From assembly GCF_026151205.1 (NCBI RefSeq), contig NC_087074.1:16184462-16248461 (forward strand): a stretch of DNA of 64,000 nt. Reading direction: 5' to 3'. This document shows, piece after piece, positions 18,925 through 52,678 of this stretch; the stretch's first letter is position 1, and every line of letters starts with the position of its first letter. The notes beneath the pieces are model-generated. The model searched no databases. It worked only from the letters and a program-made list of their open reading frames with translations, and had not been told where the DNA came from. Source of the stretch: Bolinopsis microptera (Eukaryota; Ctenophora; Tentaculata; Lobata; Bolinopsidae). Made by a program: the position numbers and the translations under genes.

Positions 18925-21900
18925 ATGAGACGTGAAATAGTTTTGTTTTTTCTTCTCATCTTGTTAGTTCCAACCATGCAAGGTGAATGAACGAGAAGGG
19001 ACAGCTATTTTTTTGCAATGATTTTTTGTCAAATTTGTGACACAGAAAACCTAGGGATTGGTCAACTGGAGGTGTTTTGTGGTGAACTGCTATCATATTT
19101 TATGCAGTGCGGTGCAGCTCAATGCTAATGTTTGAATAACAGCGTAACAAATCCTTTCCCCAGGTTACTCGAACATAGCCCATAGTAAGGGAACAGCCAC
19201 TCAAAAGGATGACTTTGCTGATGCAGATGGAAAAAAATTTGGAAAAGCACCCAAGGCAATAGATGGAAATAAACACCCTAATTGGAAAAAGTCTACAAGG
19301 TAACCATTAACCAAGTATTTTTAGATTTCAGATAATTACTTAAATAGTTCCAACTAAAATTGTATGCCCAAAATATTGTTTTCTTCTGATCGCCATGAAG
19401 TTCGTCTACAGACAGTCTATAGTTAATATTCGCTTCAGCAATTCAATAAGTCTTACGAAGAGCAAATCCGGCGCTTGGTGGAAATTAACATTTACGAAGG
19501 TCTATTACATCGACGCGATATGGATATGGAACCGCCTAGATAGATACTCGATAAGGATAAGCAAACTAACTGTAAACATAGGAACGACCCTGATTGGTAC
19601 AGTCAAATATGTTAGCGGAAAAGCTTCATATCGTTATGATGAACTAGGAGCCATGGGGAAACAGATCGTAATGAAGGCAGATTCCGGAACTCAGGTGCAG
19701 TTGGTGGAAGTGGGCGTTTATGGCGGCGATCTTGGTAAGTTGAAACTATTTTAATAACTCTTAACAAAGATTTATAAATATAAAAACAATTTTTATAGAT
19801 ATTTCAAGGCATAATCTATATTATAAATCGGTAGGGAGTTGTCAAAAGGCGGGCTCTGTAATGTTTAGATAAGGCAAATATGCACGTGAACAAATAGGTA
19901 TACCCAACAACTGTATATATATTTTTTATTTTCGATAGTATGTATATAACTATAATTAAAATACATGCACATTGCACATGCACAAAATAATTTCAGAAAT
20001 GGTAGCAGGACATAAAAAAGTTCTTCTCCTGACAGCCTCGACAATATCTTGCACGGTTAAAGGAATTTCTGCGCAGATGAAGATCGCTTGGTCCGGATAT
20101 GATGAAACAGACGGTGATTTTGTCTCTTCGGCCGGCCAGTTTGATTCGTCCAGCAGAACGGAACAGCAGATAGGAACCTTGAGTATTGCAGCATCAGCTG
20201 TGAATACCGATAAAGAATATACTTGCACCGTGTCATCTGTAAACCATCCAACATCAGATACAAAGTCTGTTATTGTTAACCTCCATACTTATGGTACGTC
20301 TAACTTATCATCTCATGATTTAAACTTAAAACCATCTACTCATCAAGGGTTGATAATATCACGATGTGAGTTTAGAGTTGAATTTCCAATCGATTTATGT
20401 AGGATATTTTTGATAAAAAGTAAATCTAAAAGAACTATTAATAATAACGTGTTATAACAGAATATCTGAAAAATTGTATCGTAATTTCAGTTGATGGAGG
20501 CTGGAGCGAATGGGGTGCGTGGGGTGTCTGCTCGGAGATCTGTGGAGGAGGACAACAGACTCGGATCAGAACCTGCTCTAACCCTACACCAGCCAATGGT
20601 GGAAGTGAATGTGTTGGAGAAGCTGAGGAATCCAAGAATGTAACACCCAACAATGTCAAGGTAAAAGTCGATAATTAGAATTGAGCAATGTTTCTTAGTT
20701 TTTAAAATTACTAGCAATTTCTACAGTATAATTAGGACATATTATGACCATCCAATATTTACGTGATTTGTTTTATGTTCTGTTTTGCAAATATCAAAAT
20801 TGCAATTGTATTGATATCGGCCTTACATTTTCTGTTTTAAGATGGAAGACCATCCTGATGAATTAGGATATATATCATACAGGTGATCTTGTTGATGGAG
20901 GCTGGAGTGATTACGGTGTTTGGACAGTCTGCTCGGAGATCTGTGGAGGAGGACAACAGACTCGGAGCAGAACCTGCTCTAACCCCACACCAGTCAATGG
21001 TGGAAGTGAATGTGTTGGAGAAGCTGAGGAATCCAAGGAATGTAACACCCAAGAATGTCAAGGTAAAAGTCGATTATCAGAATTGAGCAATTGTTTCTTA
21101 GTTTCAAAACAATGTTTCTTAGTTTCAAAACTGCTAATAATTTCACAGTATGATTTTGATCTTTCATGTTCAGCTTACAGTTTTTGTGGCTTTCTAACAT
21201 TTGCATTTATCGCAAACATTAGAAAAGTTTTGCTTTATAATATCGGCCTTAAATTTATAGACCTAGCTGGTTTTCTGTTTTTAACTTGAGTAAAATCCAA
21301 AGCTGAGTAATACAAAATATTCGTAAGATTAAGGTCCGCTGATTTACAGGTAACCTAGTTAATGGAGGCTGGAGTGATTACGGTGTTTGGACAGTCTGCT
21401 CGGAGATCTGTGGAGGAGGACAACAGACTCGGAGCAGAACCTGCTCTAATCCCACACCAGTCAATGGTGGAAGTGAATGTGTTGGAGAAGCTGAGGAATC
21501 CAAGGAATGTAACACCCAAGAATGTCAAGGTAAAAGTCGATTATCAGAATTGAGCAATTGTTTCTTAGTTTCAAAACAATGTTTCTTAGTTTCAAAACTG
21601 CTAATAATTTCACAGTATGATTTTGATCTTTCATGTTCAGCTTACAGGTTTTGTGGCTTTCTAACATTTGCATTTATCGCAAACATTAGAAAAGTTTTGC
21701 TTTATAATATCGGCCTTAAATTTATAGACCTAGCTGGTTTTCTGTTTTTAACTTGAGTAAAATCCAAAGCTGAGTAATACAAAATATTCTTAAGATTAAG
21801 GTCCGCTGATTTACAGGTAACCTAGTTAATGGAGGCTGGAGTGATTACGGTGTTTGGACAGTCTGCTCGGAGATCTGTGGAGGAGGACAACAGACTCGGG

Positions 21901-24374
21901 GCAGAACCTGCTCTAACCCCACACCAGTCAATGGTGGAAGTGACTGTGTCGGAGAAGCTGAGGAATCCAAGGAATGCAACACCCAAGAATGTCAAGGTAA
22001 AAGTCGATTATCAGAATTGAGCAATTGTTTCTTAGTTTCAAAACAATGTTTCTTAGTTTCAAAACTGCTAATAATTTCACAGTATGATTTTGATCTTTCA
22101 TGTTCAGCTTAGAGTTTTTGTGGCTTTCTAACATTTGCATTTATCGCAAACATTAGAAATGTTTTGCTTTATAATATCGGCCTTAAATTATTAGACCTAG
22201 CTGGTTTTCTGTTTTTAACTTGAGTAAAATCCAAAGCTGAGTAATACAAAATATTCGTAAGATTAAGGTCCGCTGATTTACAGGTAACCTAGTTGATGGA
22301 GGCTGGAGTGATTACGGTGTTTGGACAGTCTGCTCGAAGATCTGTGGAGGAGGACAACAGACTCGGGGCAGAACCTGCTCTAACCCCACACCAGTCAATG
22401 GTGGAAGTGAATGTGTTGGAGAAGCTGAGGAATCCAAGGAATGCAACACCCAACAATGTCAAGGTAAAAGTCGATAATCAGAATTGAGCAACGTTTCTTA
22501 GTTTCAAAACTGCTAATAATTTCACAGTATGATTTTGATCTTTCATGTTCAACTTACAGGTTTTGTGGCTTTCTAACATTCGCATTTATCGCAAACATTA
22601 GAAAAGTTTTGCTTTATAATATCGGCCTTAAATTTATAGACCTAGCTGGTTTTCTGTTTTTAACTTGAGTAAAATCCAAAGCTGAGTAATACAAAATATT
22701 CGTAAGATTAAGGTCCGCTGATTTACAGGTAACCTAGTTAATGGAGGCTGGAGTGATTACGGTGTTTGGACAGTCTGCTCGGAGATCTGTGGAGGAGGAG
22801 AACAGACTCGGAGCAGAACCTGCTCTGACCCCACACCAGTCAATGGTGGAAGTGAATGTGTTGGAGAAGCTGAGGAATCCAAGGAATGTAACACCCAAGA
22901 ATGTCAAGGTAAAAGTCGATTATCAGAATTGAGCAATTGTTTCTTAGTTTCAAAACAATGTTTCTTAGTTTCGAAACTGCTAATAATTTCACAGTATGAT
23001 TTTGATCTTTCATGTTCAGCTTACAGTTTTTGTGGCTTTCTAACATTTGCATTTATCGCAAACATTAGAAAAGTTTTGCTTTATAATATCGGCCTTAAAT
23101 TTATAGACCTAGCTGGTTTTCTGTTTTTAACTTGAGTAAAATCCAAAGCTGAGTAATACAAAATATTCTTAAGATTAAGGTCCGCTGATTTACAGGTAAC
23201 CTAGTTGATGGAGGCTGGAGTGATTACGGTGTTTGGACAGTCTGCTCGGAGATCTGTGGAGGAGGAGAACAGACTCGGAGCAGAACCTGCTCTGACCCCA
23301 CACCAGTCAATGGTGGAAGTGAATGTGTTGGACTTGGAGAAGCTGAGGAATCCAAGGAATGTAACACTCAACAATGCCCTAGAAATACGTTCGAAAATGG
23401 TGAGATAAATTTTAAACAACTTAGCAAAATACTATACGTGCCAGGATAGTTAGGGTTAGGGTTAGGGTTAGGGTTAGGGTTAGGGTTAGGGTTAGGGTTA
23501 GGGTTAGGGTTAGGGTTAGGGTTAGGGTGATGATAAATGATCATTCAGTTCGAACTTCGAACAGGTTTGAAAACCTTCCAGCGCCTTTGCACTTGATACA
23601 CGTAGCATTTCCTTTTTCGCGCGTGAAGCCCGGCTGATTCTGCACTCTCCCTTTTCTCCCTTCCTCTCTTCACTCTTCCCACAGAATTATTGAATATTCT
23701 TGAAAGATATTTAATGTAACTTAGATATCCCTAAGTAATCTTTTTGCTATCAGAACATAAACTTAAATCATCGGAGAACTGGTAAATACACAGTCCAGAA
23801 GTTCCACATCTAAGTTACTTAGTTACTAAGTAACCCAAATCATGTAAGTTGTTTAATTTCCGTGCAAATAAATGTAACACGGCCGAATTGCAGGCCAGCT
23901 AATGTAGGACAAACTTTGAACAGGAATGACAAACTTTAGATTTCTGACAATTCAATCACATTGATTAAATCAATTTAACAATATGAATACGTATTATTTC
24001 GACCTAACTCATTTCAGGAAACTTTCCATTTGTGTGGCGGGTCAAATGTCCTGAAGTCCAAACTTTCACTGCAACGTTAACTGAAAAAGTAAATATTTAT
24101 CTAGATTATGTTGCTCGACTCTTTCATTCCTTCACTTAAAAGATTTTAATCAATAATACGTTATTAGCCAATAAGTATACTTATATACGCTGTATGTAGC
24201 TATACATACATACATGACATACAATGTGCAGCTTATTGTTAAATCTCTACTCATGTTTAGATGAACGACGGAAATATCACCGCTGCTCTTTTGTTCCACA
24301 CATCCGAACCGGGCTTCTCAGAAGCTACCAAACCTATTTCGATGATCCAATTATTCGCCAGCTGGATAACATGA
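18925..24374 (+). CDS. Secreted fucolectin-like / Ig-like / TSP1 x7 protein, copy 2
   Basis: Thirteen exons: 18925-18982 signal peptide ([14 protein letters not shown]); 19164-19299 and 19412-19734 fucolectin-like discoidin domain; 19997-20293 Ig-like; 20491-20660, 20883-21062, 21350-21529, 21817-21996, 22284-22463, 22729-22908 and 23196-23399 TSP1 repeats 1-7; 24018-24088; 24261-24374 with stop. The lectin part has [15 protein letters not shown] and RLDRYSIR, which fits the RxDx4(R/K) fucose-site pattern, though the usual upstream His is not seen. The Ig-like exon has SCTV, AWSGY and YTCTVSS. TSP1 repeats show CSEICGGG, so the usual O-fucose Ser/Thr between the cysteines is Ile; repeats 2-7 have WSDYGVW with Tyr for the middle Trp. 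All module borders are phase 1. TSP1 exon 1 lacks one base (AAGAATG for AAGGAATG), giving a frameshift unless that phase-symmetric exon is skipped, which would leave 700 residues. The role is inferred: extracellular glycan binding, perhaps immune. Confidence 0.8.
20883..23399 (+). repeat. Tandem amplification of a TSP1 exon-intron cassette
   Basis: Six TSP1 exons are spaced 467, 467, 467, 445 and 467 bp apart. Exons and the introns between them are nearly identical, including the intronic AAGGTCCGCTGATTTACAG acceptor region. The shorter 445-bp spacing comes from a missing 22-bp CAATGTTTCTTAGTTTCAAA-type repeat in one intron. All exons are 180 nt and phase 1-1, so any number of copies keeps the frame. 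The last has a 6-bp in-frame insertion and an extended end. High identity of introns shows recent unequal exchange or gene conversion. Confidence 0.95.
23451..23527 (+). repeat. Interstitial telomeric repeat (TTAGGG), about 13 units
   Basis: An uninterrupted TTAGGG array lies in the intron after the last TSP1 exon of copy 2. The matching intron in copy 1 reads straight through, so the array was gained after the duplication. This is the usual animal telomere unit and such blocks commonly mark repair of a double-strand break. Confidence 0.95.
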
Positions 24375-41503: not shown

Positions 41504-42127
41504 TCAGAGTTGCTGACCACCCCAGAGAGAAGATGCCTCTCGATCGTTACGCCAGTCCAGTATAGAATTGGAGTTCGGTGATGTGAAGCCCCGGATTGGC
41601 AATTTATCCGGCAAGGAAAGCATGAATGCCGTCATATGATGCTTGAAGCCATCATGTTTGGAGACTGCACGTATGTGCGAAGGTATACAGTTCCAGAGTC
41701 TGGGACCCATTACACCAAATGATGTTTCATATAGAGTCTGGTGAGCAGCTGAGCTTTTTGTACGGACAGCTGGAACCTTAGCAAGGGTACCCAATCGTGG
41801 ATTTACTGTGAACTGTACTTCAAGGTCGTTGGATGTGAAACCATGTAGGATTTTCCACATGTGCATGACAATGTAACGTTCTCTGCGCCTCTGAAGTGAC
41901 ATGAGGGACAGGGTTTTTAGGCGATCCCAATAATGGAGATGCTGTAAACCATGGATCTTTGAAGTGAAAGTTCTTTGTACACTTTCAAGCTCCTGAATTT
42001 CATACACTTTCGCCGGATTCCACAGAGGAGAGCAATACTCTAAGTGGCTACGGACTAGTGACTTGTATAGTGTTAACATAACACCAGTATTGCGAGAGTG
42101 GAAGACACTGAATACCCATGCTGCCAT
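41504..42127 (-). pseudogene. C-terminal part of the split minus-strand LINE ORF2
   Basis: 207 codons with the standard post-RT region of jockey/CR1-type LINEs: SRNTGVMLTLYKSLVRSHLE, then CSPLWNPAK, a leucine/arginine-rich LMSLQRRRERY, and FGVMGPRLWNCIPSHIR. It continues directly from the frame that ends at 48222 once the nested insert is removed. The stop is intact at 41504. Confidence 0.9.
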
Positions 42128-42137
42128 CTTAGTATAA

Positions 42138-42210
42138 GCCTCCGTGGCCTAATGGCTAAGGCATCGGCCTCCTAAGCCGGGGATTGTGGGTTCGAGTCCC
42201 GCCGGAGGTT
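42138..42210 (+). tRNA. tRNA-Arg (anticodon CCT)
   Basis: 73 nt that fold as a full cloverleaf. The acceptor stem is GCCTCCG with CGGAGGT (one G-T pair at the end). The anticodon stem TCGGC/GCCGG surrounds loop CTCCTAA, placing CCT at the anticodon. The A box TGGCCTAATGG and B box GGTTCGAGTCC match the pol III promoter consensus exactly. No CCA is encoded and there is no intron. It sits immediately inside the left edge of the plus-strand LINE insertion, so it may be a captured tRNA or the head of a SINE instead of a normal host gene. No T-run terminator follows directly. Confidence 0.9.
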
Positions 42211-42320
42211 CACTTTAGATCCCGGGTTCAATTCCCGGCCAAGCCCCCAAGAAAGAAAAAAATAAAAAAGAGAAAAGATAGAAAAAATAAAAAAAAGAAA
42301 AAAAAGAAAAGAAAAACAGA
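42211..42320 (+). repeat. tRNA T-arm fragment followed by an A-rich tract
   Basis: Six bases after the tRNA comes a second tRNA-like 3' half: GATCCCGGGTTCAATTCCCGG contains a perfect T stem-loop and a B box (GGTTCAATTCC), followed by CCAAGCCCC. It has no 5' half. A purine tract of about 70 bp (AAGAAAG/AAAAAATA) follows, like a SINE tail. Together with the tRNA this looks like a tRNA-derived SINE, or tRNA ends copied onto the LINE during reverse transcription. Confidence 0.65.
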
Positions 42321-42553
42321 AAGAGTTTTAAACTATTTTCACAACTACAATTAAATACATTCATTGAGGTATGAGATATGATAGACGAGCGTAAGTGTTG
42401 ACGTGCAAAGGACTGCTGTGAGTGTACTTGAAGATTACTCATCCTCCTCCTTCTCATCAAAACTATTCTCATCAAAACTACTATCTGGACTGAAGGTATT
42501 GCGTTTACAGTGTTTATTGTGCTTCTGAACATTGAACTCTTGATAATATAACT

Positions 42554-43168
42554 ATGTCAAATAATCAGAGCTCAGACATTAGTCTCCACTTTTGTGAGCG
42601 CCCTTTAGAACATTTGAACTTTTCATTCCAGTCTGAAAAATCAGAGAACTGTAACAATTGTCTGTCAAAAGACATCAAGATTGACTTTTTAGAAAAAAAG
42701 TTGTCTTTATTGAATGAAATTATCAGAACTAGTGATCTCATTGCTCAGTACAATGATAGTCTCATATCAGATCAAACTCAAATACAAGAACAGAGTTTTA
42801 AGTGTGAAAATTTGCTGCCGAACTTATCAGAGGAGATTGAATGTGAGATCATAACCATTACCCCTCAGTCACACGTTGTTATCAATCAAGTAGAAGCGTT
42901 TGATGTAGATGACATTGTTGTGGAAGATGTTGTATCGGACAGTTTGTTTGTTGACAACGATGTCGTGGACAAGGTTGTTCCACAGGAGGTTGTTGGAAAC
43001 GAGATTGTTATCAGTGAGATTGTTGTTAACGAGGTTATGGCAGACGAGGATGATGTGTCTGATCTCCCTGTATCTACTGCTACTGGTGAATCACGGATCA
43101 ACACCCCTAAGCCCAGAGACAAATATCCAAACTTGGTCCCTGCCCGGCCCCTGTCTACGATCCTATAA
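42554..43168 (+). CDS. LINE ORF1a, acidic protein
   Basis: 204 residues, very acidic. The N-terminal half contains a short coiled-coil-like helix (IDFLEKKLSLLNEIIRTSD). The C-terminal half is a Val/Asp/Glu repeat region in which units like VVDKVV, VVGNEIV, IVVNEV recur. It ends 12 bp before the ATG of ORF1b in another frame, so the two could be translated by reinitiation or may be one ORF1 separated by a mutation. No known domain. Confidence 0.6.
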   Translation: MSNNQSSDISLHFCERPLEHLNFSFQSEKSENCNNCLSKDIKIDFLEKKLSLLNEIIRTSDLIAQYNDSLISDQTQIQEQSFKCENLLPNLSEEIECEIITITPQSHVVINQVEAFDVDDIVVEDVVSDSLFVDNDVVDKVVPQEVVGNEIVISEIVVNEVMADEDDVSDLPVSTATGESRINTPKPRDKYPNLVPARPLSTIL

Positions 43169-43179
43169 CACCGGGGCCA

Positions 43180-44433
43180 ATGAATATATCTGTAACTTGT
43201 TCCCCATCACCAGTGAAACCAGTTACCCTACTAGATGATGGTCCATTCTCTAAATTTTCACTTGATCTATTAATGGAAGAACTTGAGTTCAGTCACGGTT
43301 TTAAAAACAGGAAATCGGTTTATTTTGGTGACTTTCCCTATGAGTATTCAGGTGCAACACATGACCCAAAAAGTGTACACAATGATTCCTACCTTGCTAA
43401 ACTCAGCTCCTACATTAATGTGATATTACCCAATTTCAGACACAATAGTATTCTCGTCAATCTATATGAAACTGGAGCAGAGTTCATGCCAGCTCATAGC
43501 GATTCTGAATCATGTATTGTAGAACACTCTGATATTGTAACCATTTCACTTGGTGCGACGAGAACACTGCAAATTAGATCAAACGGCAGCAATGAAGTTG
43601 TGGGCTCTGTGCAGCTTCAGCATGGAGATGTCTTCATCATGTCCAAATTGTCTCAGGCTGACTTTCAACATGAGATACTGCCAGACGAAATGTGTGATGA
43701 ACCCCGGATCAGCATCACCCTAAGACTGATGAAGCCCCCTAGGATCACTCAGTCAACTGAGTTTGGTCTGCGTTCACCGCCCCCACCCATCCCTCATTCA
43801 GGACACAAACTGACAGACTCTTCTTCACCTGCACTCTCAGTTTGCAAACAGCCAGCCAAAGCTTCACAAAAGTCTGTCCTATTCATAAGCAGCTCTATGT
43901 TCAGGTTTCTTGATGCGGACAAGTTATCATCGTCCACTGTTAGTGCTAGTAAACTGTTTTATCCTGGGGCTGATGCCAAAGTAATGTTAAATAAACTAAA
44001 AACTGACCTACACTCCGTTCCATCCCCATCTATTATTTATATTATGACAGGAACTAATAATGTGAACACAGTCTATTTTGGCTCAAAGTCACTGAAGGAT
44101 GCAGCGGGTGACATTAGTAATCTCTTAAATTATCTCAAGTCAGTGTATCCGAATGCAACAATTAATGTTCTCAATATTCTTCCCAGGAGTACAAAAGGCC
44201 GCAATGATGTTGTGGCAGAGCTGAATAAGGTTATTAAGGATATGTGTAGCAAAGATTCTTGTTTTAATTACATTAGCACCCATAATTTATTTAACTATAA
44301 TAGAAGTGGATTCAGGAAAGAATTTTATTTTGCCAGACCATCTGCAAAAATATCTGATAACTGTCACCTCAATACAAGCGGTGTTATTCGACTTGCTAAA
44401 TTTCTGAAGTATTGGGCCCATAAGCAAGTTTGA
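43180..44433 (+). CDS. LINE ORF1b: AlkB-type dioxygenase fused to SGNH-esterase-like domain
   Basis: 417 residues. Residues about 20-185 match AlkB-family 2-oxoglutarate/Fe(II) oxygenases, which remove alkyl groups from nucleic acids: NLYETG (NxYxxG), AHSDSE (HxD iron ligands), QHEI (distal His) and RISITLR (RxxxxxR, 2-oxoglutarate contact) are all present in order. A Pro/Ser linker follows. Residues about 225-417 resemble the SGNH-hydrolase/esterase domain of CR1-type LINE ORF1 proteins: the first block is VLFISSSMFRFL (SSS instead of GDS), then IMTGTNNV, and the last block is DNCH (DxxH). SGNH in LINE ORF1 is established; the AlkB fusion is not something I know from LINEs. All AlkB ligands being intact suggests selection. 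It may repair or edit the element's RNA (inference). Confidence 0.8.
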   Translation: MNISVTCSPSPVKPVTLLDDGPFSKFSLDLLMEELEFSHGFKNRKSVYFGDFPYEYSGATHDPKSVHNDSYLAKLSSYINVILPNFRHNSILVNLYETGAEFMPAHSDSESCIVEHSDIVTISLGATRTLQIRSNGSNEVVGSVQLQHGDVFIMSKLSQADFQHEILPDEMCDEPRISITLRLMKPPRITQSTEFGLRSPPPPIPHSGHKLTDSSSPALSVCKQPAKASQKSVLFISSSMFRFLDADKLSSSTVSASKLFYPGADAKVMLNKLKTDLHSVPSPSIIYIMTGTNNVNTVYFGSKSLKDAAGDISNLLNYLKSVYPNATINVLNILPRSTKGRNDVVAELNKVIKDMCSKDSCFNYISTHNLFNYNRSGFRKEFYFARPSAKISDNCHLNTSGVIRLAKFLKYWAHKQV

Positions 44434-44599
44434 ATTTTCAGAAAGATTGTTAACATTTATTTCATCTAGATTCTAGATAAGGGATAATTACACATTGTTC
44501 CTCATGTTTATTGAAGTTTTAGAAAGTTTTGTTATTATCTCATACAAATTTGCCAGTTCTGCAATTTATCTTATTCTGACAAGTTTATAGCAGCATAAA

Positions 44600-47500
44600 T
44601 TGGAAAAATTTTCATGCTCTCACAGCAGTTCTTGCATTAACCCGTGCATTAGTAAAATCACAGTTTCATACCATGCCAAAAAGCTTGCAGTGGGACATTG
44701 CAACATGCAGGGAGGACTAACAGGTATGCCAAAATGTCTTGAAATCCAAGATCTAATCTGGAAAGAGAAATTAGATGTTTTATGCCTGAATGAAACAAAT
44801 CTTAAGTCGGATATTGACTCAGCCAGTCTAAACCTACCCAAGAATTTTACTTTTATCCGCAAAGACCGTCCTAACGACAATGGTCATGGGGGATGTGGCA
44901 TTCTCATCAGTGAGCACATAAAGTTTAAAATGATTCAACTAAACTTAGTTTTGCAATATGACCAAATCGAGGCTATTTGGATCCATCTTACAGATTGCAA
45001 TATTTTCATCTGCTGTTTCTACAGATCTGAGTTGTTTAGTCCTCTTGACAAATTTTTAGATTATATGACAGACTGCATGATGAGTATAGGAAGTAAGAAT
45101 GTTATTTGGCTGGGTGATGTAAATGTAGACCAAAACAACATCAGCAGTATGAACTATAAGAAATTAGACATTACAATGAAAATGTTTGGAATGGTACAGG
45201 TAGTTCAGGATATTACCCGCATTGCTAAACTAGGAAACAGAATCACAAAGACCACAATCGATGTTGTCATAACAAACACTTACTCCAAGTTTCTTGACTG
45301 CAAAGTCCTTGATGATTGTATAGGAGATCATCAGGTCGTAAAGTTCATTGTCGATTTCAATGTGCATAAGGCCTCAAAATTCAAGAAGTTACTAATAAGA
45401 GATCACAGCAAAATGAATGTTACTGCTCTTAAAGAATTTTTGGAAACCTGTGATTATAGACCAATAATAGATTCAACTAGTCTGAATGATGCAGTTGATG
45501 GTTTAAACGAACATATTGATCACTACTATGATCACTTCTGTCCAATTAAACAAATTAAGTGCCATAGTGATTACATCCATAAGCCATCTCCAGAATTTTT
45601 AGAAAGTAAGAAATTGAAAGGGAAACTTTACCGTAAATTTTTAACACACAACAAGAACAGACGTATACATCCAAATGGTCTTATACACTGTAATAAATGT
45701 GACTCATTATGGATGGCATATAAACGGCAGAGAAACTATTCAACCTATTTGTCTAGAATTAATAGGAAGACTAACTTAGCAACAGAACTGAAAGCCAAGA
45801 GTGCCATGAATGATCTAAAGGGTGTATGGAAAACGATAAAGACAGCATCAAATCTGCCTGTTAAAGCTAACAATATCAATAACAATCTTGATGCTGAAAC
45901 CACCAATAAATATTTTGCTGAAATAGGTCCAAAGATCCAAGCAGAAGTGCAGCTGGAAAATGAAAATGAATTTCTATCTTATCTACAAAATGAGCAGATT
46001 GACAACGAGACCAGCTTGAATAGCTTTACTGAAATAACTGAGTCCAATATCTTAGACTATGTGGCAAGTATCCCTTGTAGCAAATCCACTAATGATCATT
46101 ATATACCATTGAGAGTGTTTAGACAAATTTTACCTGCATTTATTGCTCCATTAACACATCTTGTAAATTTGAGTTTATCCAGTGGCATCATGCCAAACAG
46201 CTGCAAGGTTGCAAAAGTCACCCCAATCCATAAGGATGGTGATACTGAGAATCCTAGTAATTATCGACCAATCTCAATTTTACCGATTCTTGGAAAGTAC
46301 ATCGAATTTTGTGTGAACTCCCAACTGACTCAATATCTTGATGAAAAGGGAATACTTTCAGAGCATCAATATGGTTTCCGTAAAGATCACTCTACAACTT
46401 ATCTCATGTTAGATCTGTTTGATCGTATATTTACTGCTAAGAACAGTGCCAAGCATCCTGCAATTATCTTCCTGGACATCAGAAAGGCATTTGATACTGT
46501 TAACCATGATATTCTCATTCAAAAGCTGAAGCATTATGGAATAAAAGATACTGCATTGAGCTGGTTTAGGAGCTTCCTCACAGATAGATTACAGCAAACT
46601 AGAGTTGGGAGTAGGATAAGCAGTTTACATTCATTGAACTCTGGAGTGCCTCAAGGAAGTATATTAGGACCAATTCTATTCAGCATTTTTATCAATGACC
46701 TGCCTAATGCATGCCTATTTTCTAAACCTTATCTATTTGCTGATGACGGTGCATTATATTTTGACAATATATCTAGAGGAAACTATGGTAACATCAAACA
46801 AGAGTTGAAATTAGTTATCAGATGGCTTCAGGCTAATAAACTATCCCTGAATAATGAAAAAACAAAACTAATGATCCTTGACTCTAAGCCTAACCTTGAT
46901 GCCATCCTTGTTGAAATTTGTGATGACCTTACTTTGGTAATCTGTGAAACTAAATCCCATAAGTACCTTGGACTTATAGTTGACAGCAGATTGACATTTA
47001 ATGAACATATTGATAACATTAAGAAAAAGATATCCAAAAGAATTGGTGCTATGTATAGATCAAAAAAACTTCTCCCTCTTAAGTTCAGGAAGATGTTTGC
47101 TAATGCACTTATGTTGCCACATTTTGACTACTTAGACACCATCTGGTCAAGAACATATAAAAAACGACTAGGAGAGTTAGATATCATGTACAAAAAGGTT
47201 GCTAAAATAGCCCTAGATGTAAACATCAGAGAGAGGTCGGTTAATGTATACAAAAATATGGGATGGCTTCCTCTCCATTTGAGACGACAGGTTCATCTTA
47301 GCTCATATATGTACCGTATAATCAATGAAACATGTCCAAAGCATTTTATCGGGAAATTATCGTATATTTCTGGTGGATCACGTGAGGCAGAAAACTGCAA
47401 TCTTTATACTCCTAAATCAAGATCTCACAAGGAGTTTAACTATCTAGGAACTAAGGCCTGGAACATATTACCAAAGTCCCTTAGAGAGTGTGACGACGTT

Positions 47501-47623
47501 AAGAAATTTTCTAAGTTATACAAAGAAACTCTTATGAATATGTTGCTAACTGATGAGAATTACCAAGGGGATAACTCTTACGATAAATTCATGATCCCAC
47601 CCAACACTAGCCAATGTATCTAG
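44600..47623 (+). CDS. LINE ORF2: AP endonuclease and reverse transcriptase, intact
   Basis: 1007 residues. The AP-type endonuclease occupies about 25-255: GHCNMQGG, LCLNETNLK (catalytic Glu), GGCGILIS, WLGDVNVDQN and GDHQVV (Asp-His pair). After a basic linker, the reverse transcriptase lies at about 540-800: PIHKDGDTENPSNYRPISI, QYGFRKDHSTTY, FLDIRKAFDTVNH, SGVPQGSILGP and LFADDGAL, where FADD is the catalytic box. A C-terminal region with RIGAMYRSKKLLPLKFRKM and YLGTKAWNILP matches jockey/CR1-like LINEs. No RNase H is seen. The protein nicks target DNA and primes reverse transcription there. The Met at 44600 is the first in the frame. No stop, so potentially active. Confidence 0.95.
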   Translation: MEKFSCSHSSSCINPCISKITVSYHAKKLAVGHCNMQGGLTGMPKCLEIQDLIWKEKLDVLCLNETNLKSDIDSASLNLPKNFTFIRKDRPNDNGHGGCGILISEHIKFKMIQLNLVLQYDQIEAIWIHLTDCNIFICCFYRSELFSPLDKFLDYMTDCMMSIGSKNVIWLGDVNVDQNNISSMNYKKLDITMKMFGMVQVVQDITRIAKLGNRITKTTIDVVITNTYSKFLDCKVLDDCIGDHQVVKFIVDFNVHKASKFKKLLIRDHSKMNVTALKEFLETCDYRPIIDSTSLNDAVDGLNEHIDHYYDHFCPIKQIKCHSDYIHKPSPEFLESKKLKGKLYRKFLTHNKNRRIHPNGLIHCNKCDSLWMAYKRQRNYSTYLSRINRKTNLATELKAKSAMNDLKGVWKTIKTASNLPVKANNINNNLDAETTNKYFAEIGPKIQAEVQLENENEFLSYLQNEQIDNETSLNSFTEITESNILDYVASIPCSKSTNDHYIPLRVFRQILPAFIAPLTHLVNLSLSSGIMPNSCKVAKVTPIHKDGDTENPSNYRPISILPILGKYIEFCVNSQLTQYLDEKGILSEHQYGFRKDHSTTYLMLDLFDRIFTAKNSAKHPAIIFLDIRKAFDTVNHDILIQKLKHYGIKDTALSWFRSFLTDRLQQTRVGSRISSLHSLNSGVPQGSILGPILFSIFINDLPNACLFSKPYLFADDGALYFDNISRGNYGNIKQELKLVIRWLQANKLSLNNEKTKLMILDSKPNLDAILVEICDDLTLVICETKSHKYLGLIVDSRLTFNEHIDNIKKKISKRIGAMYRSKKLLPLKFRKMFANALMLPHFDYLDTIWSRTYKKRLGELDIMYKKVAKIALDVNIRERSVNVYKNMGWLPLHLRRQVHLSSYMYRIINETCPKHFIGKLSYISGGSREAENCNLYTPKSRSHKEFNYLGTKAWNILPKSLRECDDVKKFSKLYKETLMNMLLTDENYQGDNSYDKFMIPPNTSQCI

Positions 47624-48221
47624 GCAGTTATGTTATTTCGGTTAAGTTATCTCAGTACATAAGTGAATCCAATCTATCCCCTGCAATCAAAGTATTTCCA
47701 TGCCTATTAAGCTATTACAGGAAATTAGGAACATCAGTGGAAAGGTGCACTGTCAATCATTATTGCTCCATACCTCCAGTCCTCCTGTTATGTGCAATTC
47801 TCACTGTATGCTCCTCATTTGTATCAATTATATTGATGCTACATTGTTATTGAATATGAAATAATTTTCAACCGTATTAATTTATTAACTTATTGTAAAT
47901 AGCAAGTTTGACAAAGGGATTACGTTTATTTTACCCGGAGTTCGTTTAAGTTTAGTATTGTAAATAGTTAATTTGACGAAGGGAATACGTCTATTTTACC
48001 CTGAGTTATGTTTTAGTTCAATCTTGACACAATTTTAAAATTATAATTTAATTATTTTATATATATGTATTGGGGTGGCCTGCTAACAGAACCATGATCT
48101 GCCTTGATTCATCCTTCAGCACAGAGAAAAGCTCCTTTTTTTATACATTATGATTACAGAGGATCTGATATTTAGATATATATTGCTGTGCTGTAAAAAT
48201 TGACTTTATTTATTTATTTAT

Positions 48222-49613
48222 TTATTTATTTATCTTCCTCGCTTTATCACAACTAGGTCGTATGTGTGATGTCCAGGACGTATCACTGGATACTGTTATA
48301 CCGAGATCACGGAGCTGATCCACAGGACTGAGTATAGTACCAGTTGATGTTCTGTATTGGAACTGTTCATGGACAAAAGGAAGCTCATAGAGAGGATTAC
48401 GTTTGTTGGCAAGATGGCATATGTACTCAAACTTATCCTCATGTAGTGCCATGTTGTTTCTTGATGACCACTCAGTGACTTTGTCAAGATCAGACTGAAG
48501 CTCAGTAACATTATGTGAATCACTGATGGATCTGCAAATTCTTGTGTCGTCAGCGAAACATCTTAACGTTGAATGCAACACGCAGCTAGCAATGTCATTA
48601 ATGAATATTAAAAACAGTATGGGACCTAAAACTGTTCCTTGGGGGACACCACTCATAATAAGAGCAATGATAGACATGTGACCATCTACAACAACTTGTT
48701 GAGTTCTATTTGTAAGAAATGACTCGATCCAGATGATGATTTTGGGATGAAAACCATATAGCTGCAGTTTTTTGATAAGAAGTTGATGATCTACTTTATC
48801 AAAGGCCTTGGCATAATCCAAGTATATAGCGTCCATGTCGTCACCATTTGATAACGCCTCGATGATGTCATCAAAATGATGAAGCAGCTGAGTGAGACAA
48901 CTTTTCCCTGATCGGAAGCCATGCTGTTTGCTATTGAGAAGGTTGTTTTCTTCAAGGTGGGCCACCATCTGTTTTCGTAGAACTCGCTCATAGATCTTAA
49001 TGACATGAGAAGTTAACGACACAGGTCTGTAGTTTCCCGCAATAGCACGACTGCCTTTCTTGTGAAGTGGAGCAATGTTTGATGTCTTGTAGAACTTCGG
49101 CACTGTGCCTGTAGACATAGAATGCTGCCAAATCATGTGGAAGTTGTAGTCTCCTAAGAGGCATGTCTCATATGATTCATGTCCAGATATATAATCAGCC
49201 ATATTCTCTAAACATGCTTTGAAACTGGCCATTGGGGCATCAGGAGGACGATAAAGGACACATATGATCATTTTTGCTGTTTCACATTTACAAAGTAATG
49301 CTTGACAGATCTTATCATCAAATGTCTGAGAGCTGGTGATGGGGAGGCTTTCGTGAGAATAAAGGAGGACCCCACCACCTACCCTAGTACTTCGATCACA
49401 TCTAGAGATATTATAATGTTCAATATCTAACTGTGAATCGTGGATATAAGGTTTCAACCATGTTTCAGTAAGGGCAATAAATGGAACAGAAATATGTTTA
49501 GATTTCTGCTCTACTTTATTCCGGATGTATGGGATTTTCCATCTGGTTGAGCTGCGAGCACTAGGGTTAATGGATTGCACATTCAGCAAGAGTGCTGATG
49601 AAATCGAGCCCAT
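48222..49613 (-). pseudogene. LINE ORF2, endonuclease deleted, reverse transcriptase interrupted
   Basis: The frame opens with the start of an apurinic endonuclease (LLNVQSINP, FIALTETWLK, GGGVLLYS, LLGDYNFH) and then jumps directly to the RT connector (FYKTSNIAPLHKKGSRAIAGNYRPVSL). About half the endonuclease and the linker have been deleted in frame. RT motifs follow: QHGFRSGKSC, YLDYAKAFDKVDH, SGVPQGTVLGP and CFADDTRI, where FADD is the catalytic box. The frame ends where the plus-strand LINE inserted. The remainder lies at 42127-41504 (HLEYCSPLWNP, LESVQRTFTSKI, MGPRLWNCIP). Not functional. Confidence 0.9.
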
Positions 49614-51721: not shown

Positions 51722-52678
51722 TTAAAACACAAGCTCATTCGTATCGAAGTTTAATTCTGTCCATTCTAATTCTTCGTACCTGGACTGTATCTTGAGTAGC
51801 TCACTTTTCAGTGTTACTTTAACTAAGTTTGTTGACTTAGTAAAGCTTATCAAACTGTCAATTTTTCGACAGTCGTTCCACATTTTTGTTGATTGATAAA
51901 TGAAAGAGGAGGATGGGTTCGGGGTGATGAACTGGTCTGAACGTCTTTGTGATGGTGATCTGTGGAGTAAAGATAGGAGTGAGATTGGAGATTCTAATCT
52001 GACAATTTTGAACAGTTCTAATAGACATGTGTATTTGTACAGGTTGTGGACGGTAAGAAGGCCGTTCTTGTTAAACAACGGCTTTGTATGCTCTTTTTCA
52101 AAGAATTCCCTTCCTAGGATTTGTTCATCTATACAACGTGTTCTGGCACATGTTCTAAACTTATCTATATATGCTTCAAGGTCACCAAATAGTATTCTGA
52201 TACATTTTTTCTGAGTGATGAAGATAGGTTGAAGCATATTGTTACTCGACCCACCCCATACCGATATTCCAAATCTTAGGTGAGACTCAAATAACGTGTG
52301 GTACAATTCTTTATGGTGTTTTTTCGGGATAACATGTCGTATTCTACTGAGTCTTCCGATCTCACATCTAAGTTTCGAGTTGAGGGCTCTTATTTGAACA
52401 TCCCATTTTAGCTTTTCGTCAATAATAACACCTAAAAACTTGGTCTCTTTAACTTGCTTTATTACCGTATTATTCAGAGTTAGTATGTATTCTGATTCGT
52501 TATCTGCCTCATTATCAGTAGCTGTACGTGACGGCTTGAAGTGAATGTAGCAGCATTTCTTTATATTTATATGTAATAGGTTGCATTTCATGTACTGGTG
52601 TAACAAACGGAGAATTTCGTTTGCTCTTTCATACAGTTTTTTTCTACATTCATCTACTACAAATATGTAGTCAATCAT
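51722..52678 (-). pseudogene. 5'-truncated LINE, end of reverse transcriptase
   Basis: 318 codons beginning after the catalytic box with a palm/thumb-like segment (NLLHINIKKCCYIHF), then VKETKFLGVIIDEKLKW and HLRFGISVWGGSSN, the region that follows the RT core in CR1/jockey-like LINEs. The C-terminal part ends NELVF with a stop, and about 240 bp downstream would be its 3' UTR. There is no endonuclease and no FADD box, so it is a typical 5'-truncated dead copy from a family different from the two LINEs to the left. Confidence 0.85.

Follow-up and report, generated by a model that had tools for sequence, protein, structure and literature searches.

Why would the first open reading frame (ORF1) of a long interspersed nuclear element (LINE) encode a putative oxidative demethylase, and what could such an enzyme do for the element? 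The question is raised by a locus of the ctenophore Bolinopsis microptera, located in the 64,000-nucleotide stretch of contig NC_087074.1 (assembly GCF_026151205.1, positions 16,184,462 to 16,248,461 of the forward strand) that was analyzed here and is referred to as the window. From the sequence alone, an earlier note had proposed that ORF1 of a LINE in this window fuses an AlkB-type 2-oxoglutarate (2OG)-dependent dioxygenase to an SGNH-esterase-like domain, upstream of an ORF2 for endonuclease (EN) and reverse transcriptase (RT). We found this fusion in an EN-RT LINE confirmed by Pfam, by structure searches, and by homologues.

The AlkB profile search had been named beforehand as a possible refuter of this assignment. 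It returned a match of the 417-aa frame encoding both domains to 2OG-FeII_Oxy_2 (1.8e-18, residues 54-182); two GDSL lipase models of Pfam matched weakly over residues 270-407, both below their cut-offs. When the frame was searched as a single sequence against solved structures, human ALKBH3 (5e-15), ALKBH2 (1e-6), E. coli AlkB (0.0017), and the LINE esterase 4c1b (0.052) were recovered, and with the family profile the respective values were 2e-26, 5e-25, 2.6e-6, and 5.5e-4. The bit scores of the family profile were 96 for ALKBH3, 91.5 for ALKBH2, 30 for AlkB, and 17 for ALKBH5 (E 0.014). The proposed check against AlkB folds agreed with the note as well, with ALKBH2/3 ranking first in the structural comparison and a double-stranded beta-helix fold like that of ALKBH2/3. 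Judged from sequence, the AlkB domain is ALKBH2/3-like rather than ALKBH5-like. For the SGNH domain, the fold with its Ser, Gly, Asn, and Asp/His residues is present. In a viral fold library (50 matches listed), the named matches were for the most part viral proteins with an AlkB domain, from giant viruses, plant RNA viruses, and Picornavirales. A Bacillus phage SGNH protein was also listed, with an alignment of 375 columns, 12% identity, and a root-mean-square deviation of 18.7.

The fusion is not confined to the window. A search for ORF1 homologues recovered 258 proteins at an E-value of 1e-3 or better, the best 120 of which were listed (down to E 4.7e-60). PF13532 is present in 118 of these 120; the second refuter named beforehand, other copies lacking the domain, did not come true among the listed relatives. 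We aligned the window with 115 of the 120 (116 rows), leaving out three Mnemiopsis gene models that are fused with other sequence (P0009, P0041, and P0080), a protein without the distal AlkB part (P0031), and a 275-aa fragment (P0032). Of the alignment columns, 29 are invariant, and these include H106, D108, H164, R176, and R182 of the AlkB domain, that is, the HxD, distal His, and RxxxxxR motifs picked out originally (116 of 116), as well as S239, G263, and N293 of the SGNH domain. D393 and H396 of the latter are invariant in all 115 rows with letters at these positions, P0048 being gapped there. For nine catalytic residues placed randomly in 417 columns, 31 of which are invariant, the probability that all nine are invariant is ~2e-11, a rough value that ignores relatedness. 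Mean column entropy is 1.91 in AlkB, 1.95 in SGNH, and 3.37 in the linker, indicating that the domains are equally conserved and the linker is not. Pairwise identity in each domain averages 43% and falls to about 30%, and the 116 sequences form 43 clusters at 60% identity. In this alignment, both active sites are strictly kept across many divergent relatives; since none of the catalytic residues varies in the 116 sequences, an enzymatic role has likely been retained.

Three further residues of the AlkB domain bear on its chemistry. In ALKBH3, Tyr143 and likewise Leu177 anchor the base (PMC10816986). By alignment, Tyr143 falls on Y56, a Tyr in 115 of the 116 rows, and Leu177 on position 92, where every row has either Leu or Met. 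E110 is invariant in the family and stands, matched by position, at what we take to be the place of AlkB Asp135. The two domains also appear to have travelled together. AlkB and SGNH distances correlate with a Mantel r of 0.72, compared to at most 0.05 in 999 permutations, and trees of the two domains have 39 identical splits at a support of at least 0.9, from 58 (AlkB) and 57 (SGNH), which suggests that their histories are largely shared.

All six organism-named proteins among the listed ORF1 homologues are from the ctenophore Mnemiopsis leidyi, and the closest named one has ~50% identity. A recent capture from a host gene was considered and rejected, as no close cellular donor was found in a word-based search, which is insensitive and leaves a distant donor possible. 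With the AlkB part alone (173 aa) as query, one protein, P0121, was found among 17 candidates (39% identity over 57%). This 200-aa AlkB protein runs, by eye, into an SGNH-like start (GDSNT, GTND). By its sequence it is perhaps a second, distant AlkB-SGNH lineage; the viral-contig scan gave no relatives of it. Further copies of the element were found neither in viral contigs (ORF1 profile and ORF2) nor in genome contigs (ORF1 profile).

ORF1 had initially been described as one uninterrupted frame. This holds for the AlkB and SGNH domains but not for the whole ORF1, because the alignment to P0001, an intact relative of 617 aa, is split over two frames of the window: its residues 1-190 correspond to 42554-43144 (frame +2, 72% identity) and its residues 190-617 to 43147-44430 (frame +1, 86% identity). 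We therefore place the true ORF1 start at 42554 and a frame change of the present copy at ~43140-43150. The AlphaFold2 model of P0001, with a mean predicted local distance difference test (pLDDT) score of 72.7, comprises a helix at residues 35-80, disorder at 82-210 (pLDDT <50), and then AlkB and SGNH. The helix (block means of pLDDT 63-86), which is a single predicted helix in a monomer model, might form a coiled coil. A Pfam search with the N-terminal part of ORF1 gave no match. In the window ORF1, a CxxC motif sits at the helix start; as a universal ORF1 feature it was rejected, since only 66 of 121 proteins have it within their first 90 aa. Most listed homologues (112 of 120) have 500-730 aa, with a median of 584 aa. 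Alignment and model together give the predicted order helix, disordered stretch, AlkB, linker, and SGNH, followed by EN-RT.

ORF2 matched RVT_1 (2.3e-36) and, below cut-off, Exo_endo_phos (1.9e-4) and Exo_endo_phos_2 (4e-4), and contains the motifs HCN, NET, GDVN, GDH, and FADD. Its best solved structure is 8c8j, an RNA-directed DNA polymerase (2.4e-14), and human LINE-1 ORF2p (8sxt) matched at 2.3e-13. By these signatures, ORF2 encodes the APE-type endonuclease and the RT of a retrotransposon without long terminal repeats (non-LTR). We found 135 relatives, and among the 120 listed, 109 have 45-93% identity and the other 11, which include PHD-bearing LINEs, 26-28%. Because of this step from at least 45% to at most 28%, the RT of the window belongs to a distinct, bounded group. 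From the stop at 44588 to the first endonuclease motif (stretch 44588-44700), ORF2 has no in-frame ATG. A Met precedes this motif in 85 of the 109 close relatives; eight others begin at MQGG (including the two closest, P0122 and P0123, which likewise start beyond it), and 16 begin later or are without the motif. Two of the listed relatives carry an organism name: one is from Mnemiopsis leidyi, and the other, P0123 (80% identity), is from a Tenacibaculum metagenome bin, where it is probably a eukaryotic contamination. Taken alone, the organism names of both lists already make a ctenophore host likely.

Whether the order AlkB-SGNH-EN-RT recurs elsewhere, as the earlier note had asked, can be answered in part. 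There is one direct case, the Mnemiopsis gene model P0218, which unites AlkB, SGNH, and RT and has 66% identity to the window ORF2 over 61%. For other contigs the linkage of ORF1 and ORF2 is indirect: the two match lists have six exact longest-contig sizes in common (3850, 4006, 5714, 6274, 6470, and 7050), where jitter predicts 1.4; of 2000 jittered sets, 4 attained six.

What the AlkB domain might do for the element can be proposed on this basis. The interpretation that we tentatively favor, and whose chances we put just short of even, is that the ORF1 protein (ORF1p) belongs to an EN-RT LINE family whose esterase-type ORF1 adds an ALKBH2/3-like dioxygenase clearing methyl groups from RNA or complementary DNA (cDNA). 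ORF1p would multimerise through its N-terminal helix and gather the element RNA into a ribonucleoprotein particle, perhaps also gathering membranes via the SGNH domain. AlkB would then oxidatively strip Watson-Crick-face methyl groups, namely 1-methyladenine (m1A) and 3-methylcytosine (m3C), from the element RNA or from single-stranded cDNA, and this might spare the RT of the element from stalling or being misled during target-primed reverse transcription. ALKBH2 and ALKBH3 reverse m1A and m3C. Both modifications stall reverse transcriptases, and AlkB relieves such stalls in tRNA sequencing. For AlkB, the reversal of m1A and m3C is stated in PMC544882. Clearance of m1A and m3C is preferred because of the nearness to ALKBH2/3, the residues Y56, position 92, and E110, the chemistry of AlkB, and the block to RTs. 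By sequence, repair of m1A/m3C in the manner of ALKBH2/3 is better supported than erasure of N6-methyladenosine (m6A) in the manner of ALKBH5. The inference of the earlier note, a demethylase with which the element protects or resets its RNA or counters host methylation, is supported in part. A wider claim would be that a diverse animal LINE lineage brings along its own lesion remover, in that the protein packaging its RNA is also an ALKBH2/3-like demethylase that frees the template of RT-blocking methyl bases, with template quality control being conserved; this is slightly more doubtful, yet a serious candidate.

Several observations weigh against this interpretation. The Asn of NxY contacts 2OG, and RxN precedes the last Arg in AlkB and ALKBH2/3. 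In the aligned family, position 94, the site of this 2OG-contact Asn, is N in 37, H in 37, T in 34, Q in 4, and S in 4 of 116 sequences (position 96 is Tyr in 111 of 116), and the RxN of ALKBH3 is changed to RxS, position 178 being Ser instead of Asn in every one of the 116 sequences. Co-substrate binding could therefore differ, and because the Asn residues of NxY and RxN are not those of the known enzymes, we regard the domain as a member of the AlkB superfamily with a divergent 2OG site, ALKBH2/3-like as a working assignment, rather than as a plain ALKBH2 or ALKBH3 member. In addition, the fold alone does not give the substrate, the comparison with PDB structures leaves out some AlkB families, and 6 of the 58 supported AlkB splits clash with some SGNH split. 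Finally, the present copy has its frame change in ORF1, and P0218 is degraded, with Asn for the distal His and a missing SGNH C-terminus, so neither copy is evidence of an active element.

Other explanations have to be weighed against the clearance of m1A and m3C. AlkB might instead serve epitranscriptomic or epigenetic evasion by erasing host silencing marks, be it m6A on RNA or marks placed on newly made DNA copies. There is a precedent in orchids, where the AlkB of Ty3/gypsy elements resembles ALKBH5 and is reported to demethylate m6A in vitro (PMC9289625), and m6A on RNA is reported to affect retroelements (PMC9289625, PMC7873242). The profile match of our family to ALKBH5, however, is weak (17 bits, E 0.014, versus 96 bits for ALKBH3), and ALKBH2/3 top the structural list. 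Moreover, retrotransposition of human L1 is promoted by m6A and suppressed by ALKBH5 (PMC7873242), so an m6A eraser would harm an L1-like element, and we consider evasion unlikely. Repair on the DNA side, in which ALKBH2-like removal of m1A and m3C would occur at the insertion site or on nascent cDNA, is a somewhat fainter prospect. The bases removed would include 3mC made by DNA methyltransferases. Against this explanation, the sequence score is slightly better for ALKBH3, which acts on single-stranded DNA and RNA, than for ALKBH2. ORF1p-type proteins are, in addition, presumed to package element RNA (PMC3905857).

The same presumption that ORF1 proteins mainly serve packaging (PMC3905857), together with the variable 2OG-contact Asn, would fit an AlkB domain that is now structural, an RNA- or protein-binding module devoid of catalysis. 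We regard this as improbable: across all 116 sequences, with domain identities as low as about 31%, none of the three iron ligands or the two arginines varies, and binding alone would hardly enforce such invariance. An assembly error, or a host AlkB gene inserted by chance beside a LINE, would be compatible with the frame change in the present copy. Against such an artefact or one-off stand the number of homologues (258 proteins, of which 115 were aligned), the largely congruent domain histories, and the Mnemiopsis model with the same order, and we give it next to no credence.

The features of the insertion are compiled in Table 1. Two ORFs flank the break in the host LINE on the minus strand, ORF 48222-49613 on the right with ...CDKARK at the break and ORF 41504-42127 on the left with MAAWV..., and we read 41504-42127 and 48222-49613 (minus strand; RT and C-terminal part) as the halves of one interrupted LINE. 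ATCTT is the sole 5-mer common to both junction neighbourhoods compared, which is too short for proof and suggestive only. The tRNA-Arg(CCT)-like sequence lies 7 bp in from the 5' end of the insert and may be either a head that the LINE family regularly carries or the product of a template jump in the present copy. A second tRNA-like T-arm at ~42220-42245, seen by eye and without an Rfam match, is followed by an A-rich stretch, within 42138-42320. An Rfam match to Plastid-ycf2 was dismissed, as it is under its gathering score and antisense of the tRNA. Elsewhere in the window, a LINE RT fragment lies at 51794-52672 on the minus strand (23% identity to ORF2 residues 716-983). A 467-bp tandem repeat (5.4 copies) occupies 20878-23376, and its frame holds a 27-residue stretch labelled by eye as thrombospondin-type-1-like. 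At 23449-23528 there are 13 copies of GTTAGG, presumably the animal telomere hexamer.

Table 1. Coordinates of the LINE insertion and its parts in the window.
Feature	Coordinates	Strand	Basis
Putative 5-bp target-site duplication ATCTT, left copy	42126..42130	.	junction comparison
Whole LINE insertion, ~6.1 kb, nested in another LINE of the minus strand	42131..48231	+	ends read from junctions
tRNA-Arg(CCT)-like sequence	42138..42211	+	Rfam RF00005, 63.5 bits; ARAGORN
N-terminal portion of ORF1 in the other frame (204 aa), with CxxC, long helix, and disordered tail	42554..43168	+	72% identity to P0001 residues 1-190
CNNC motif and predicted long helix	42650..42790	+	motif position; helix transferred from P0001 model
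AlkB-SGNH part of ORF1, 417 aa	43180..44433	+	open frame, Pfam, structure searches
AlkB/ALKBH2-3-like domain, aa 10-186 (H106, D108, H164, R176, R182, E110)	43207..43737	+	
SGNH hydrolase domain, aa 229-417 (S239, G263, N293, D393, H396)	43864..44430	+	
ORF2 (EN and RT) in a single open frame of 1007 aa	44600..47623	+	
(TTTA)n 3' tail	48205..48233	+	tandem repeat finder
Putative target-site duplication ATCTT, right copy	48232..48236	.	junction comparison

Among the matches listed in the open literature, a scope with subscription papers and Repbase outside it, no LINE with AlkB was found; the AlkB passages in the available portions of krill, tubeworm, and cnidarian papers refer to cellular alkB2/ALKBH2. 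Esterase-type LINE ORF1s are already known, and what appears new from the sequence is an added, conserved ALKBH2/3-like domain in such an ORF1. LINE ORF1 proteins are presumed to be RNA packagers, and esterase ORF1s already hinted at enzymatic roles. That the dioxygenase is kept in 118 of 120 listed relatives suggests that nucleic-acid damage or marks matter to these elements. Whether alkylation or methylation of the template RNA limits retrotransposition becomes a directly testable question, and the family offers candidate demethylases that may act together with an RT. If our interpretation is true, template quality control, which is known from host enzymes and has been proposed for some RNA viruses, would become a conserved part of retrotransposition.

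The closest known systems are the esterase-type ORF1s of CR1, L2/ZfL2-1, and RTEX, which likewise precede EN-RT and have an SGNH domain with catalytic residues kept (PMC3905857, PMC4120745); unlike in the window family, AlkB is not mentioned in the available parts of their descriptions. ZfL2-1 ORF1 has an N-terminal coiled coil, where the P0001 model of the window family shows one predicted helix, and the ZfL2-1 esterase has the transposon-specific residues H191 and S228 (PMC3905857). Other domains named in the accessible text of an ORF1 survey are PHD, RRM, CCHC, transposase-22, and zinc finger/leucine zipper, and the word 'dioxygenase' is absent from it (PMC4120745). Within the parts at hand, esterase-type ORF1s are placed only in vertebrate groups by PMC4120745 and over many animal phyla by PMC3905857. 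SGNH hydrolases have also been captured by bdelloid LTR and Penelope-like elements, but these GDSL/SGNH ORFs differ in element class and stand as an extra ORF or in another context, with AlkB unmentioned in the excerpt available (PMC5408684). A retrotransposon carrying an AlkB enzyme is described for Phalaenopsis, where an additional ORF of a Ty3/gypsy LTR element encodes an ALKBH5-like protein reported as a recent acquisition in orchids (PMC9289625). The window family, in contrast, is a LINE with AlkB fused in ORF1, ALKBH2/3-like, and diversified into 43 clusters at 60% identity (116 sequences). Compared to human ALKBH2 and ALKBH3, its AlkB domain is fused to SGNH in a mobile element, has RxS for RxN, and varies at the 2OG Asn. 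Plant flexiviruses, finally, are RNA replicons that encode their own AlkB, proposed to protect the viral RNA; there, AlkB forms part of the replicase, and AlkB distances show little correlation with those of the other domains (r2 0.10-0.16; PMC544882), whereas the AlkB and SGNH histories of the window family largely agree.
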